64,000 nucleotides of DNA from Microbacterium sp. zg-B96 (GTDB lineage Bacteria > Actinomycetota > Actinomycetes > Actinomycetales > Microbacteriaceae), in assembly GCF_030246865.1 (NCBI RefSeq), contig NZ_CP126738.1:496001-560000 (forward strand), written 5' to 3'. Of this stretch, positions 40,511-46,780 are shown one piece after another. Under the pieces are notes generated by a model that saw only the letters and a list, made by a program, of their open reading frames with translations, made no database searches and was not told the origin of the DNA. Made by a program: the position numbers and the translations under genes. The stretch's first letter is position 1; each line of letters starts with the position of its first letter.

Positions 40511-41875
40511 ATGGCGCTGTTCGGTACGGACGGTGTGCGGGGGCTGGCCAACGGCCCCCTCACCGCCGACCTCGCGCTCTCCCTGGCCCAGGCGACTGCC
40601 GTCGTCCTGGGCCAGGGGCGTATCGCCGAGGCTCGGCGCAGGGCCGGCAAGCGGCTCACCGCCGTCGTCGCGCGCGACCCTCGGATGTCGGGGGAGTTCC
40701 TCTCGGCCGCGGTGTCGGCAGGTCTCGCCTCGTCGGGCGTGGATGTGCTGGATGCCGGTGTGCTGCCGACCCCGGCGGCGGCGTTCCTCGTTGCCGACCG
40801 CGACGCCGACTTCGGCGTGATGGTCTCGGCCTCGCACAACCCCGCACCCGACAACGGCATCAAGATCTTCGCCCGGGGCGGCTCGAAGCTGCCCGATGAC
40901 GTCGAGGCGCGCATCGAAGAGGCGATGTCCGGCCCCAAGCTGCAGCCCACCGGCGGCGCTGTCGGTCGCATTCGCCGGTTCGCCGACGCCGAAGACCGCT
41001 ACGTCGTGCATCTGCTCGGCTCGCTGCCGTATCGCCTGGATGGTCTGCACGTGGTGCTGGACTGCGCCCATGGCGCGGCATCCGGAGTCTCACCCGAAAC
41101 GTTCCGGGATGCCGGCGCCCGCGTCACGGTCATCGGCGCCGACCCCGACGGCATGAACATCAACGACGGCGTCGGCTCCACTCACCTCGACGTGCTCGCC
41201 GGTGAAGTGGTACGTGTCGGTGCCGACGTCGGCATCGCGCACGATGGCGACGCCGATCGCTGCCTCGCCGTGGACGCCGCCGGCAACATCATCGACGGCG
41301 ACCAGATCATGGCGATCCTCGCGCTGTCGATGAAGCGACGCGGCCGTCTCAAGCACGACACCCTCGTGGCGACCGTCATGAGCAACCTCGGTCTGCACCG
41401 TGCGATGACCGAAAACGGCATCCACGTCGAGCAGACCGGTGTCGGCGACCGCTATGTGCTGGAGCGCATGGCCGCCGGCGGGTTCTCGCTCGGCGGCGAG
41501 CAATCCGGCCACGTCATCATGAGCGAGTTCGCCACCACCGGTGACGGACTGCTCACGGGCTTGCACCTGTGCGCCGAGATGGCACGCACCGGCCGGACGC
41601 TGGCCGAGCTGGCCTCCGTCATGACCGTGTACCCGCAGGTGCTGATCAACGTCACCGGCGTCGACCGCACTCGGGTGAACGACGACGCGACCGTGCAGGA
41701 GGCCCTCGCCGCCGCGACCGCGTCGCTCGGACTGTCGGGACGGGTGCTGCTGCGCGCGTCGGGAACCGAACAGCTCGTGCGCGTGATGGTCGAAGCCGAG
41801 ACCGCGGATACCGCGTCGGCGGTCGCCGCAGACCTCGCCGCCGTGGTGCAGAAACGGCTCGCGCTGCGCGTCTGA
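40511..41875 (+). CDS. glmM: Phosphoglucosamine mutase
   Basis: A 454-residue alpha-D-phosphohexomutase. N-terminal FGTDGVRG, the active-site serine loop [13 protein letters not shown] (Ser108), the metal-binding DGDADRC and the sugar-binding GEQSGH are all present. It interconverts glucosamine-6-phosphate and glucosamine-1-phosphate for UDP-GlcNAc, needed by peptidoglycan and the EPS. It lies 11 bp after rpsI, the standard actinobacterial order rplM-rpsI-glmM. Confidence 0.97.
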
Positions 41876-42060
41876 CCGGCCAATTACGCCAATCGTTCTG
41901 GATGCGGTACAACTGTCCTAACACGGCTTCGGAACCGCGCTGATCGGGCAATCCCCCCACGCTCGATCTCGCTACCCCGCGCCGTCAGGCATCCGCGCTC
42001 GTGCACAAGCGCCGGAGCCGCGAGAGGGCCGCGCCGCTGGGGGCCGGCTCTCTCCGCTCC

Positions 42061-42114
42061 CGAGTGAGTATTCGTGCTCCCGAGTGAGTATTCGTGCTCC
42101 CGAGTGAGTATTCG
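42061..42114. repeat. 14-bp repeat array A, three direct copies, 20-bp period
   Basis: CGAGTGAGTATTCG occurs at 42061-42074, 42081-42094 and 42101-42114, with identical TGCTCC between copies, giving an exact 20-bp period. It lies 20 bp beyond the 3' end of the membrane-protein gene (42135). The same word forms the larger array at 45709-45828 on the other side of the two-gene unit. No gene is seen between glmM and this array. Confidence 0.95.
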
Positions 42115-42134
42115 CGCGGCATCCGCCCGCCGGC

Positions 42135-43004
42135 TCAGGCCACGGCCCCGACACGCGTCCGCGCAGCCCGCGCGCGGCGCAGTCGCACTTGGCACCACGC
42201 CGTGAGCCCGCCGTATGCCAGCAGCGCGCACACGATCAGCGCGACGAACAGCGGCGCGGCGGGCCGCTCGCTCAGCAGATCCTCCCGGCGCACGATGAGC
42301 GACAGCCCGATCGCCACCAGGCTCAGCAGCTGCGCCTGGAAGAGCACGCGGAACGCGCTCCACCGCGAATCCCACAGCATCGCCGCGTTCACGACCCCGG
42401 TGAGCGTCAGCACCGCCCCAGTGACCCGCGCGGTGAGCGGGGTCAGCTGCCACGCCCACACTTCCACCGCCGCGGCCGGCGCGATGAACGCGAACAGCCC
42501 CACGCACAGCGCACCGGCACCGATCACCGCCAGCGCGATGCGCGCCGCGCGGGGGATGGTCACATCCGCCGGTTCCGGCACGTGCGGATCCTCCCGCCGC
42601 TGCACGACTGCCAGCACCGCGACGATGACCGGTGTCGTGGCGTAGAGCACCAGCCAGGTGTAGAACGACAGGTTCTGCGAGAACCGGTCCAGGTGCAGCA
42701 GCGTCGCGATCAGCAGGAGACCTGCGAACACGACCACCGCCGGGAACCCGCGCGACACCCGGTGCCACCGTCTCGTGGTCGCGACGCGGAGGAAGAACCA
42801 CACCCCGCCGACGTATGCCGATGCGAGCAGATACGCCGTCAGCGGGGGATCGATCGGCCAGGCGAACAGCTCGCCGGTGCGGGTCGGGAACACATAGAGC
42901 AGGAACGCCGCGATGACGAGGAACGGGATGATGACCACGGCCACCCACCGGGTCGTCGCGAACACCCGGTCGGACGTGGGGCGAAGAGAGTCACGGCCGG
43001 ACAC
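42135..43004 (-). CDS. Polytopic membrane protein paired with the STAND-type ATPase
   Basis: A 289-residue protein with eight or nine hydrophobic helices and short loops, ending in a basic tail (RRARAARTRVG). No family is recognised; it has no transporter motif. It starts with GTG at 43004 and its first 14 bp overlap the 3' end of the DUF4062/STAND gene, suggesting translational coupling and joint function. Acidic and aromatic residues cluster in the N-terminal loops (TGELFAWPIDPP). It could be a membrane effector or channel activated by the ATPase; that is speculation from layout. Confidence 0.75.
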   Translation of the reverse strand: MSGRDSLRPTSDRVFATTRWVAVVIIPFLVIAAFLLYVFPTRTGELFAWPIDPPLTAYLLASAYVGGVWFFLRVATTRRWHRVSRGFPAVVVFAGLLLIATLLHLDRFSQNLSFYTWLVLYATTPVIVAVLAVVQRREDPHVPEPADVTIPRAARIALAVIGAGALCVGLFAFIAPAAAVEVWAWQLTPLTARVTGAVLTLTGVVNAAMLWDSRWSAFRVLFQAQLLSLVAIGLSLIVRREDLLSERPAAPLFVALIVCALLAYGGLTAWCQVRLRRARAARTRVGAVA

Positions 43005-45630
43005 GGTCGAGCACCTCCGCCACCGTCAGCTCCAGGCCCTCGGACACCGCGGCATCCAATTCCTCACCCTTCCCCGCATCACGCAGCGCCTGCAGCGGCG
43101 CCAGGTGGTAGTCGAACGCGCCCCGGTTGCCCAGACCAGTGCGCCGGCGAAGTCGCTGCGACGCGCCCAGCAGCAGCCCCGCCGCCATCGCGTTGCCCGC
43201 CGCTGCCTGCACTGCCACGAACGTCTCCAGGCCGTAGGCCGTGCCGTCGTCGTGACCGAGCGCGACGGAGAGCTCGAAGGATGCCACGAAATCGGCCGTG
43301 CCCCCGTCGGCATCCCCGCTGAGCAGCCTCGCCCAGCCGCGGTGATTCTGCGCGATGACGATGCCGAGCCGCTCGCCCTGAGCCTGCGCCAGTGCGAGGC
43401 TCTGCTCGAAGCGCGACCGGGCGGACTCCGGGGAGCCGGTGGCCAGATCGAGACGCCCCAGCATCACCAGGGACATCGCCTGCCCCCAGGTGTCCTGCGC
43501 ATGCTGGAACCGGGCGTAGCTGCGCTCGAGCTCGTCCGTCGCGGCGGCGACGTCGGGTACCGGCACCCGCGCCAGCTGCGCGAGCCCCACCGACACCCCC
43601 GCCAGCGCCGCGCCGTCCTCGTCGCCGACCTCGTGGAAAAGGTCGCGGCTGGACTCCAGCCCCGGCATGGGGTCGTAGTCGTCCTGCTGCCAGAAGCGCA
43701 CGGCGTTGACGTAGTACAGCGCGATCGCCCGGCTGCGCGGAGTGAGGGCGATGTCCTCGCGGTCGGCGGCCGCCAGCAGTTCCGCCATCCAGCCCGCCAC
43801 GAGACCGAGGTAGCCGGCGATCCACAGGAACAGGTACAGGTGCCAGGCGTACTCGGCTGCGGCATCCAATTCGTGTCTGTTCAGCAGCGTGCGCATGACG
43901 GCGGCGAGATTGTCGATCTCCAGTTCCAGCCGTGCCAGCCACTCCAGTTGATCGGAACCGCGTAAACCGTCGCCGGCATCCTCGGCCAACGACAGGTAGG
44001 CGCGGATCCACCCCTGCACGTTGCGCTCGGCCTCGTCGGCCGGCTGCATGCCCAGCGCGTAGGAGCGCACCGTGCCCAGCAGCCGGAACGCCGGGATCTC
44101 GCCGGCATCCACGCGGCTGAGCAGACTGGCGTCGGTGAGAGCTTCGAGCACGTCGAACGGGTCGTCGACGCCGGCGCTCGCGAGAACGTGCTCGGCGGTC
44201 GCCAGGGCGAAGGAGCCGGAGAACGGGGCGAGCACCCCGAGCGCGGTGCGGGAGCGCTCGTCGAGCAGATCGACGCTCCACTCGATCGTGCGGGCCAGCG
44301 CGCGCTGCCGGTCGGGAAGGTCCCGCGCGCCGTCGACCAGCAGGGTGAGTGCGGAATCCAGGCGGGCGAGGATCTGCTGCGGGCTCAGGATGCGCGCCCG
44401 CGCGGCGGCCAGCTCGATCGCGAGGGGGATTCCATCGAGCACCCGGGTGATCGCGATCACGGCGGGGGTGTTCTCCGGCGTCAGGCGGAACGACGGCCGC
44501 ACCGCCGTCGCACGCTGCACGAACAGCGACACGGCCGAAGTGCAGGCGGCGATCTCGTTGTCGGTGTCGGGCTCGGGGGTTTCGAGCGGCCCCACCTCGA
44601 AGACCTGCTCCGCCCGCAGCCGCAGTGGGGAACGGCTGGTCACCAACAGCTGCAACCGGGGCGCGCCGCTGACCAACTGGACGAGCACATCGGATGCCGC
44701 CATGAGGTGTTCCATGTTGTCCACGACCAGCAGCACGTCGCGGTCGACGATCGCCGCCTGCACCTTGTACGCCAGCGGCTCGTCGCCCACATTGCGCACG
44801 CCGAGGGCGCGGGCGATCACCGTGATCACCGTTTCGGGGCGGGTGACCGACTCCAGCGCCGCGAAGGCGACGTCGCGGCCGGAGGTCGCGGCATCCAGGG
44901 CGAGCTCGATCGCGAGGCGCGACTTGCCGACGCCGCCCGGTCCGGTGAGCGTGAGGATGCGCACGCCGGGGCGTGCGAGCAGCGCGCGGGCGGCATCCAT
45001 CTCGGTCTCCCGGCCGACCAGCGACGAGTAGGGTGCCGGGATCGCGCCGACGATCGAGAGCGAGCCGGTGGGCGATGGGTCGAACACGGTGGCTGCTGTG
45101 GCTTCGGCGGCCGCAGCCTCGGCCGCTGCGACTTGCGCCGCTGCGGCCTCTGCCGCGTCGAAGCGTTCGGCGAGGAGGGTCGCGATGTCGGCGAGCACCA
45201 GGTCGGCGAGCTCCTCGGGCGTGTGGAATGACTTGTACGAGGTGCGGTCATCGGAGCGGACGGCGTCGAGCAGGCCGGACAGGCGCTCCTCGCGCTTCGG
45301 GGCCGGCTCCTTGATGTAGATCAGCGACGGCAGGGCGGTGGAGAGACGGTATTCGTCCTCGAGGCCGGAGATCTTCTCATCCGGGGCGACCCAGCCGTAG
45401 CGTTCCCAGTACAGGCCGATAAAGATGTCGCTCTGCTCGAGGTAGGAGCGGTACAGGGCGCGCGGCGGGTGGGGCCGGGCGCCGAGCTCGAACATCACCG
45501 GGGCCAGGTGCAGCCGCTCGAGCACGGCGCGCACGGCGCGGCGCTCAGGCTCGAGCTCCCTCAACGTGGAACTGATGAAGACTCGGATGCGCTGATCGGG
45601 CGTGCGAATCTGTGGTTTCGCGGCATCCAT
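42991..45630 (-). CDS. DUF4062 plus STAND-type ATPase with TPR-like C-terminus
   Basis: An 879-residue multidomain protein. Residues 15-155 are a DUF4062 domain (RVFISSTLRELEPERRAVRA, then DIFIGLYWERYGW and EDEYRLS). An Ala/Glu-rich coiled stretch (155-180) leads to an AAA/NB-ARC-like ATPase: Walker A GPGGVGKS (230-237), Walker B DVLLVVDN (298-305), then LLVTSRSPL and GIPLAIELAAARAR, as in COG3903/AfsR-type ATPases. Residues 520-879 are helical repeats resembling TPRs. DUF4062 has a TIR/SLOG-like fold in several STAND proteins. The layout (N-terminal effector, switch NTPase, repeat sensor) matches defence or signalling STAND proteins. ATG at 45630; the upstream in-frame extension is GC-rich spacer. 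Confidence 0.85.
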   Translation of the reverse strand: MDAAKPQIRTPDQRIRVFISSTLRELEPERRAVRAVLERLHLAPVMFELGARPHPPRALYRSYLEQSDIFIGLYWERYGWVAPDEKISGLEDEYRLSTALPSLIYIKEPAPKREERLSGLLDAVRSDDRTSYKSFHTPEELADLVLADIATLLAERFDAAEAAAAQVAAAEAAAAEATAATVFDPSPTGSLSIVGAIPAPYSSLVGRETEMDAARALLARPGVRILTLTGPGGVGKSRLAIELALDAATSGRDVAFAALESVTRPETVITVIARALGVRNVGDEPLAYKVQAAIVDRDVLLVVDNMEHLMAASDVLVQLVSGAPRLQLLVTSRSPLRLRAEQVFEVGPLETPEPDTDNEIAACTSAVSLFVQRATAVRPSFRLTPENTPAVIAITRVLDGIPLAIELAAARARILSPQQILARLDSALTLLVDGARDLPDRQRALARTIEWSVDLLDERSRTALGVLAPFSGSFALATAEHVLASAGVDDPFDVLEALTDASLLSRVDAGEIPAFRLLGTVRSYALGMQPADEAERNVQGWIRAYLSLAEDAGDGLRGSDQLEWLARLELEIDNLAAVMRTLLNRHELDAAAEYAWHLYLFLWIAGYLGLVAGWMAELLAAADREDIALTPRSRAIALYYVNAVRFWQQDDYDPMPGLESSRDLFHEVGDEDGAALAGVSVGLAQLARVPVPDVAAATDELERSYARFQHAQDTWGQAMSLVMLGRLDLATGSPESARSRFEQSLALAQAQGERLGIVIAQNHRGWARLLSGDADGGTADFVASFELSVALGHDDGTAYGLETFVAVQAAAGNAMAAGLLLGASQRLRRRTGLGNRGAFDYHLAPLQALRDAGKGEELDAAVSEGLELTVAEVLDRVRP

Positions 45631-45708
45631 GAAGTGATACTCCCGCCGTGGCGTTCGCGAGTAAAGGGGCCGGGTGCCGCGGCGCTCGATGACCACCCCG
45701 CACGCTGC

Positions 45709-45828
45709 CGAGTGAGTATTCAGGCTGCCGAGTGAGTATTCGCGCTGGCGAGTGAGTATTCGCGTCGGGCGCGACGAATACTCACTCGCCGCGACGAATA
45801 CTCACTCGAGGGGACGAATACTCACTCG
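45709..45828. repeat. 14-bp repeat array B, three direct plus three inverted copies
   Basis: CGAGTGAGTATTC[AG] occurs at 45709, 45729 and 45749, then its complement CGAATACTCACTCG at 45775, 45795 and 45815. Both halves keep an exact 20-bp period, and the whole forms an inverted repeat centred near 45768. It fills the gap between the STAND-type ATPase start and the ppx stop (45836). Spacer 6-mers differ between copies, while the 14-mer is conserved, so the word itself is under selection. Confidence 0.95.
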
Positions 45829-45835
45829 GCAGCCG

Positions 45836-46780
45836 TCAGACGCCGGGGGCACTCCACGACAGCGACTCGATGTACCGCAGCAGCACGCCCTCGCGCAGGG
45901 CCCAGGGGCTGATCTCCAGCTCCTCGACGTCGAGCGCCTTCATCGCCTGGTGCATCACCACGGCAGCCGCGACGATCTGGAACGTGCGGTCCGCCGTGAT
46001 CCCCGGCAGGGCCTCCCGCGCCTCGGCGGGGATGCGGGCCAGCCGCGGGATCCACGCCTTCAGCGCCGAACGCGGCAGCACCCACCGCTCGATGCCCGAC
46101 CACCCCGGCACCGGATACCCGGCAAGCTTCGCCAGCGACCGGATCGCCTTCGACGACCCCACCACGTGGTCGGGCCGCGGCATCGTCTTGAACACCTCGG
46201 CCACCGGCGCGAGCGTCTTGCGCGCGTGATCGCGCAGCCGGTCGACGTCGTGCTCGCTGGGCGGGTCGTTCGGCAGGTACTTCACCGTCATGCGTCCGGC
46301 CCCCAGGGGGACGGATGCCGCAGCCTCCGGCAGCTCGTCGTGGCCGGCGGCCAGTTCGAGCGAACCGCCGCCGATGTCGAACAGCAGGATCTGGCCGGCG
46401 GACCACCCGAACCAGCGGCGCACCGCCAGGAACGTGAACCGCGCCTCGGTCTCGCCGCCGAGCACCTGCAGATCCTGCCCGAGGGCCTCCTCGATGCGCG
46501 CGATCACCTTCTTGCCGTTCTTGGCCTCGCGCACGGCACTGGTCGCCGTCGCGAGGAGTTCGACGACGTTCTCGCGAGCCGCGATATCGCGTGCCTCACT
46601 GACCGCGTTCACCAGCGCGGTCACGCCCTCGTCGCTGATCGAGCCATCCGGCTCGAGGTAGCGCATCAGCCGCAGCACGGTGCGCTTGCTGGTGGTCGCA
46701 TGGGGCCTGCCGCCGGGGATCACATCCGCGATCAGCAGATGGACCGTATTCGAACCGATATCGAGGACTCCGAGGCGCAC
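45836..46780 (-). CDS. Ppx/GppA-family phosphatase
   Basis: A 314-residue protein of the ASKHA fold. The N-terminal phosphate-binding motif is VLDIGSNTVHLLIADV and the second is LLFDIGGGSLELA. It lacks the C-terminal HD domain of long Ppx proteins, as is usual for actinobacterial Ppx. Such enzymes hydrolyse polyphosphate or pppGpp; which one applies cannot be told from sequence. GTG at 46780 is preferred since it places the motif at the N-terminus. Repeat array B starts 8 bp after its stop. Confidence 0.9.
   Translation of the reverse strand: MRLGVLDIGSNTVHLLIADVIPGGRPHATTSKRTVLRLMRYLEPDGSISDEGVTALVNAVSEARDIAARENVVELLATATSAVREAKNGKKVIARIEEALGQDLQVLGGETEARFTFLAVRRWFGWSAGQILLFDIGGGSLELAAGHDELPEAAASVPLGAGRMTVKYLPNDPPSEHDVDRLRDHARKTLAPVAEVFKTMPRPDHVVGSSKAIRSLAKLAGYPVPGWSGIERWVLPRSALKAWIPRLARIPAEAREALPGITADRTFQIVAAAVVMHQAMKALDVEELEISPWALREGVLLRYIESLSWSAPGV

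Follow-up and report, generated by a model that had tools for sequence, protein, structure and literature searches.

Do the short repeats that bracket a two-gene unit in Microbacterium sp. zg-B96 belong to those genes, or to something that the whole genome shares? The question is raised by a 64,000-nucleotide stretch of contig NZ_CP126738.1 (positions 496,001 to 560,000; hereafter the window), in which nine copies of the 14-bp word CGAGTGAGTATTCG are arranged in arrays on either side of a gene for a STAND-type ATPase and a neighbouring gene for a membrane protein. A sequence-only reading of the window had reported three copies at 42061–42114 and six, three direct and three inverted, at 45709–45828. 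All nine were located and eight are exact, the copy at 45709 having A rather than G as its last base, and all same-strand steps inside each array are 20 bp. By chance, 0.42 matches with up to two mismatches are expected in the window (standard deviation 0.68), and none of 100 shuffles gives nine. At the same threshold the 64 kb contain no further copy, which bears out the earlier impression that the word is confined to the arrays within the window.

The genome of the window (G000; 3.41 Mb, one contig) contains 243 copies of the word at up to one mismatch (129 + 114), and the reversed control gives none. It also contains 202 neighbouring pairs at a 20-bp step (up to three mismatches). Scattered genome-wide, the copies stand at the ends of unrelated genes, dozens in all. 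The arrays are therefore not a marker of the STAND and membrane-protein genes. Such abundance is the outcome that the sequence-only reading had named as refuting it, and the suggestion that they bracket this pair and travel with it has to be abandoned. The related idea that they are a recognition or regulatory sequence of the two genes could appeal to the fact that arrays flank the pair on each side, both here and in G118, a related genome; it is refuted by the same counts, and we give it practically no credence. We propose instead, with about even confidence, that the arrays are transcript-end elements that depend on direction and form a dispersed family specific to this lineage. They are best read as resembling repetitive extragenic palindromes (REPs) in position and not in structure.

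The placement of the arrays relative to genes was analyzed for 70 arrays of two or more units in G000 (190 neighbouring pairs) and 63 in three relatives (G118, G031, and G025), among the matches listed, which for G000 means most but not all arrays; the four-genome total is 133. Genes were called with a simple codon-usage script rather than taken from the reference annotation, and their starts are approximate. In G000, 51 of the 70 arrays are downstream of a gene in sense orientation, 18 are upstream of a start codon and directed away from it, and the remaining array is at the edge of a locus. Nearly all of the sense arrays (48/51) start within −26 to +22 nt of the stop codon; 21 of the 51 provide the gene's own stop, as the TGA of their first or second unit. 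The downstream-sense and upstream-away classes number 14 and 8 in G118, 18 and 7 in G031, and 14 and 2 in G025, so that across the four genomes 97 of the 133 arrays are sense downstream and 35 are upstream and directed away.

Seventy-eight arrays are within 25 nt of one gene only, and 73 of them point outward (binomial p = 1.5e-16; orthologous arrays are not independent, which makes p-values of this kind too small). The five that point inward are array A of the window and those at L015, L044, L061, and L069. A further 22 arrays have a flush stop on both sides; of the 133, a single array falls within a called gene and another at an edge. Units within an array are direct repeats, and arrays less than 200 bp apart face each other, with the order +− in 25 of 25 cases. 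Arrays directed into a start within 60 nt are few (9 of the 131 placed arrays), and five of these nine are flush after a stop. A Pfam scan of ten genes at G000 arrays gave ordinary identities wherever a gene could be named (RbfA, IMP dehydrogenase, PheT, Ppx/GppA, an RraA-like protein, acyl-CoA dehydrogenase and oxidase, an exo/endonuclease-phosphatase, and the STAND ATPase), and one gene is without a family.

The unit is approximately 20 bp long, has the consensus CGCYSC-CGAGTGAGTATTCG in 100 regular arrays of at least three units, and is repeated head to tail two to eight times. In these arrays CGCYSC is also conserved ahead of the first unit, and little is conserved past the last. In the output of our array finder, 325 of 330 steps in the 133 arrays are exactly 20 bp. 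Because the finder requires a 20-bp neighbour for inexact units, we also counted steps of up to 60 bp between cores with at most one mismatch, with no demand on spacing: 304 of 314 are 20 bp, four are 40 bp, and six have other values. In 55 pairs of orthologous arrays the word is 93.2% identical and the spacers are 51.1% identical, compared with 46.4% for random spacers. The exact step and the constant word with varying spacers, first noticed in the window, are thus properties of the arrays genome-wide. The cooperative binding to a single DNA face suggested from them is a possibility.

The number of units is equal in 17 of the 55 pairs and different in 38, and at one site G118 has five units where G031 has one. 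It follows that the word and the step are kept, while the spacers and the copy number turn over. Homogenisation between arrays could account for part of the conservation of the word. Among the four genomes, orthologous arrays have the same class and a similar distance at many sites, though not at all, and at some sites an array of one genome is matched by nothing, or by a single unit, in another. The unit contains an imperfect dyad, GTGAGTAYTCRY. A change of T11 to C is found in the last unit of 32 of 100 arrays, in the first unit of 3 of 100, and in 18 of 186 middle units, and this concentration in the last unit gives the arrays a polarity. The last unit is often a better palindrome, CGAGTGAGTACTCG.

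The paired word is present in five of 149 genomes of the genus, G000 counted, and a broader variant pattern matches 13 of 366. Six of those 13 have arrays, namely G000, G118, G031, G025, G133, and G753 (one array); each of the other seven has a single match with three mismatches. In a sample of the family (398 genomes, 85 genera) G000 is the sole match at up to one mismatch. A scan of species genomes for three-unit arrays, from which records near the window's genome may have been left out, returned only Microbacterium pullorum (G025) and, with a variant word, M. saccharophilum (G133). A pheT tree of the 30 best matches places G000, G753, G025, G031, and G118 in one group (support 100/99), leaving its inner order open, and pairs G133 with G081, which has no match to the broader variant pattern. 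The word is GAGTGAGTATTC in the main clade and GAGYGCGTATTC in M. saccharophilum, where A7 is replaced by C and the 20-bp step is kept.

No array match was found in the collections of viral contigs, phages, and plasmids that we searched, and a phage or plasmid origin was rejected for this reason. A literature search, whose reach did not extend to most subscription journals or bioRxiv, returned no account of these arrays, and GAGTGAGTATTC turns up in unrelated papers. The density of the 70 arrays of G000 is 42 and 29 per Mb at the contig ends and 11–17 per Mb mid-contig, which would represent enrichment at the origin provided that the contig begins there.

What stands at the corresponding gene ends in genomes without arrays? 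At the 3' junction of rbfA, an array alone separates convergent genes in G000 and G025, and in G031 the array is followed by a longer gap. Among array-less relatives several have hairpins at this junction and others have none (judged by eye; 30 loci of 58 genomes with a match). In approximately 418 kb of G753 we found 14 orthologous 3' junctions, one of which still has an array. Six of the 14 have a strong hairpin, compared with 6 of 93 array junctions (p = 0.001); the latter come from G000, G118, G031, and G025, counting sense arrays no more than 60 nt from a stop, and their units were masked. Two of the six G753 hairpins are one and the same, shared by two convergent genes, and counting it once gives 5/13 (p = 0.004). 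At some genes, the array seems to take the place of the usual terminator hairpin.

Moreover, GAGTGAG is found at 5 of 13 gene ends of G753 where relatives have arrays and at 6 of 370 other ends (p = 8e-6), and these remnants point to array loss in G753. No hairpin replacement is visible at the upstream-class sites of G753, one of which has an apparent decayed unit. A search for other array families, as 9-mers found in triplicate with a constant period in non-genic DNA (103 loci or 811,886 bases of other genomes including G753 and G133), found none beyond the known arrays of these two and a few short tandem repeats with periods of 14–35, all in G753 loci, whose dispersal was not assessed. At L210:18620–19000, G753 has unrelated tandem repeats of 28–30 bp with TCGTTGAGCGAGCGGAGCG and its complement, and a similar hairpin sequence follows a gene of G136.

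On the outward strand, neighbouring units can pair with one another over 12 nt. All 12 standard pairs are formed by 96 of the 153 distinct G000 dimers, in which 92.6% of cells pair on the sense strand compared with 60.1% on the other strand. Transitions fit this pairing well (158 keep it and 21 break it, mostly at three positions). A simple mini-hairpin of positions 1–14 was rejected because transitions fit it worse (60 keep, 39 break); transversions break both. The commonest letters at two positions, T11 and G14, worsen the DNA dyad but preserve the RNA pairing. Compared with dinucleotide shuffles, 58 G000 arrays fold with a mean z of −3.8, a value inflated by the repeats, and the strand asymmetry of folding is significant against permuted words (p = 0.014). 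In window positions 41800–46000 no Rfam family reaches its gathering score; six matches at E <= 1, all far below it, overlap array B (the units at 45709–45828), and a known RNA family was excluded on this basis.

Beyond the position, orientation, and conservation of the arrays and the hairpins that replace them at some orthologous sites, all of which are seen directly, we infer the following. RNA polymerase exiting a gene would meet the array in one fixed orientation, mostly just past the stop codon, and the roughly one quarter of arrays upstream of starts would be read in that direction by outgoing antisense or divergent transcription only. The arrays may end or weaken the transcription that leaves the gene and so insulate the neighbours, a job that hairpin terminators do elsewhere. 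The preferred route is at the RNA level, where adjacent units of the outward RNA would form a 12-nt duplex rich in G-U pairs, a pairing impossible for the opposite strand, and where inverted +− pairs of arrays could fold into very long hairpins. A protein reading the units at 20-nt steps may help. The fixed orientation argues for RNA and the exact step for the involvement of a protein. We favor an RNA-level end signal, possibly assisted by a protein, and regard a protein lattice on DNA as its main rival.

Several observations weigh against such an end signal. The stability of folding on the sense strand is unexceptional relative to permuted words (p = 0.09), and 25% of shuffled-word arrays fold equally well. 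Because of the former value, and because repeats inflate the z-scores, we take folding as support and not as proof. Pairing is poorer for the variant word of G133 (0.75, nine dimers), a base-exact step is unnecessary for simple hairpins, and no T-rich or U tract follows the arrays (T fraction of 0.13–0.17 in the next 20 nt in the four genomes, locus-edge arrays left out). At the orthologous junctions, 8 of the 14 in G753 are without a strong hairpin, and the 6 of 93 array junctions noted above do carry one beside the array. The background frequency of strong hairpins is 20/53 at convergent junctions of G753 and just 5/22 at array-free convergent junctions of G000. The G753 junctions are therefore ordinary for that genome, and it is the array junctions that are hairpin-poor. 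Array A of the window, one of the five exceptions to the outward rule, points at the membrane-protein gene and is 21 nt from the stop of that gene. In addition, one array is located between acyl-CoA dehydrogenase and ligase genes that appear to form a single operon. In five genomes it precedes the next start by 33–45 nt, and it is the only array found in G753 (L130:9760–9833, four units).

In a DNA-level explanation, a DNA-binding protein would sit on every 20-bp unit, roughly two turns of the helix, and the resulting row would block or mark gene borders. A step held at 20 bp while the spacers are near saturation favors this, as do the imperfect dyad and the variant word of M. saccharophilum, whose retained step is expected if the binding protein had shifted its preference. 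However, a dimer on the dyad alone leaves the orientation unexplained, and T11 and G14 keep the RNA pairing but impair the dyad. No partner protein was found in the parts of the genomes compared: there was no candidate among 106 genes of part of G000 set against part of G753 (unmatched genes judged by eye), and a Pfam scan of ten genes (nine near G133 arrays and one in G000) gave none except a TetR-type protein in G133. At L127:11840–13051, one gene upstream of a variant-word array, M. saccharophilum encodes a 403-aa protein with TetR_N matches in two stretches. We consider the lattice possible, at well below even chances; it would overlap with a transcript-end signal if the lattice stops RNA polymerase.

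The arrays might alternatively act after transcription, as REP-like elements whose structured RNA beside the stop codon would shield the 3' end of the mRNA or delay ribosomes at termination and leave transcription unaffected. The close placement of sense arrays around stop codons and the array inside the acyl-CoA operon agree with this, as do two papers, which place REPs of other bacteria downstream of genes, often giving stop codons and using G-T pairs (PMC3733652), and report ribosome stalling by E. coli REPs that are no more than 15 nt from a stop (PMC12306157, citing its reference 17). We nevertheless find it unlikely, as the arrays directed away from a start are absent in sense from the mRNA of that gene, and hairpins stand at some of the same junctions in relatives. 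Slightly more improbable in our view is a selfish or neutral tandem repeat that has spread, with an insertion bias, into tolerated intergenic places. Such a repeat could explain the restriction to one small clade, with a variant in a single further species, the unequal unit numbers at most orthologous sites, and the apparent loss of nearly all arrays from G753. It does not explain the orientation, the flushness to genes, the conserved word with unconserved spacers, or the recurrence at orthologous sites, and the absence of a match in viral, phage, and plasmid collections also speaks against it. The REP-associated tyrosine transposase (RAYT) domain Y1_Tnp (PF01797), the one type of transposase sought, is found in none of six genomes, with a control detected in 5 of 14 named genomes. 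A RAYT-driven REP was discarded accordingly.

As transcript-end signals the arrays can be compared with several known systems. Intrinsic and tandem hairpin terminators include the I-shaped terminators of actinobacteria. The arrays likewise follow stop codons, and hairpins stand in their place at some orthologous junctions, but they differ from intrinsic terminators in having no U tract, one shared word everywhere, a direction given by G-U pairing, and an exact step. In eukaryotic rDNA (ribosomal DNA), Sal-box/TTF-I and Reb1 sites are protein roadblock terminators, oriented repeated sites downstream of genes. The arrays are also oriented repeated sites downstream of genes; unlike these eukaryotic sites, they have no known partner protein and are found upstream of starts as well.

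As described in PMC3733652, REPs are short, high-copy, intergenic sequences, found mainly at the 3' ends of genes and separating convergent or co-oriented ones, that often supply the stop codon, have stems with frequent G-T pairs, and end the palindrome on one side in an unpaired tag, GTAG or CGTC. The arrays resemble REPs and bacterial interspersed mosaic elements (BIMEs), so described, in copy number, intergenic location, predominance at 3' ends, frequent provision of the stop, and G-T pairing. They differ in being direct head-to-tail repeats at a fixed 20-bp step that nearly always point outward, in a consensus without the GTAG or CGTC tag of that description, in the absence of Y1_Tnp from the six genomes, and in units that do not alternate, with neighbouring arrays in the order +− only. 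The TAACTGA direct repeats, according to PMC4679880, occur in Beggiatoaceae, Cyanobacteria, and some Bacteroidetes in sets of 2–6 copies, with 169 sets in one genome, where they are mostly just upstream of start codons. The arrays share the dispersal in sets and the direct repetition of a single short word. In contrast to the repeats of that account, however, they are found past stops or directed away from starts and have another word and a longer unit. We place the arrays in neither the REP nor the TAACTGA family.

The features of the window are collected in the table. The start of the STAND gene is that given by the codon-usage caller, and a longer open reading frame begins at 45696; AAA_16, AAA_25, and NB-ARC matches in this gene are under the Pfam cut-off. 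The product of the gene 5' of array A we take from its sequence to be a glmM-like phosphoglucosamine mutase. Array A has the same direction as this gene and begins 186 nt past its stop; between them, at 42022–42052, is a hairpin-like sequence, GAGAGGGCC...GGCC..CTCTC, recognized by eye, and the glmM-like gene may own a separate terminator there. Array B1 is 79 nt upstream of the STAND gene start and directed away from that gene. The orthologous site of G118 has equivalents of A, B1, and B2 and one extra minus array at the 3' end of the membrane-protein gene. There the counterpart of array A is 221 nt from the glmM stop and is paired with this minus array, and B1 and B2 are kept at 85 nt and 7 nt, respectively.

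Table. Arrays and neighbouring genes in the window (positions are those of the 64,000-nucleotide stretch)
Feature	Position	Strand	Description
Array A	42061..42114	+	Three CGAGTGAGTATTCG units at 20-bp steps (42061, 42081, 42101), between convergent glmM-like and membrane-protein genes
Array B1 ('U' class)	45709..45762	+	Three units (45709, 45729, 45749), the first with A14
Array B2 ('T' class)	45775..45828	-	Three units (45775, 45795, 45815), sense orientation, 8 nt past the ppx stop codon
B1 and B2 as a single transcript	45701..45836	-	Inverted arrays, predicted to form one long hairpin of -98.7 kcal/mol
glmM-like gene 5' of array A	40511..41875	+	Presumably phosphoglucosamine mutase-like
Membrane-protein-like gene	42135..43004	-	By sequence; no Pfam family at E <= 0.001
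STAND-type ATPase gene	42991..45630	-	Pfam: DUF4062, AAA_22, and TPR_12 over cut-off
Ppx/GppA phosphatase gene	45836..46780	-	Pfam; array B2 at 3' end

A more far-reaching form of the transcript-end proposal, which we offer tentatively and consider doubtful, is a dedicated one-way system of transcription insulation. An RNA or DNA word would be read at a 20-nt step by a putative factor and would replace hairpin terminators at many gene ends of one clade. In M. saccharophilum the factor would have changed along with its word, and G753 would have dropped the system, leaving relic stop codons. Ordinary terminator hairpins vary from gene to gene and are nearly symmetric. Here one word, in one direction and at an exact step, marks gene borders across the genome, and sister genomes that have hairpins, relics, or nothing at the matching junctions provide a ready comparison. 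If transcription runs on past the arrays, they are an unusual REP-like family that lacks the customary transposase. If it is stopped by them, they would be a compact one-way terminator and a model for how a genome swaps its end signals.

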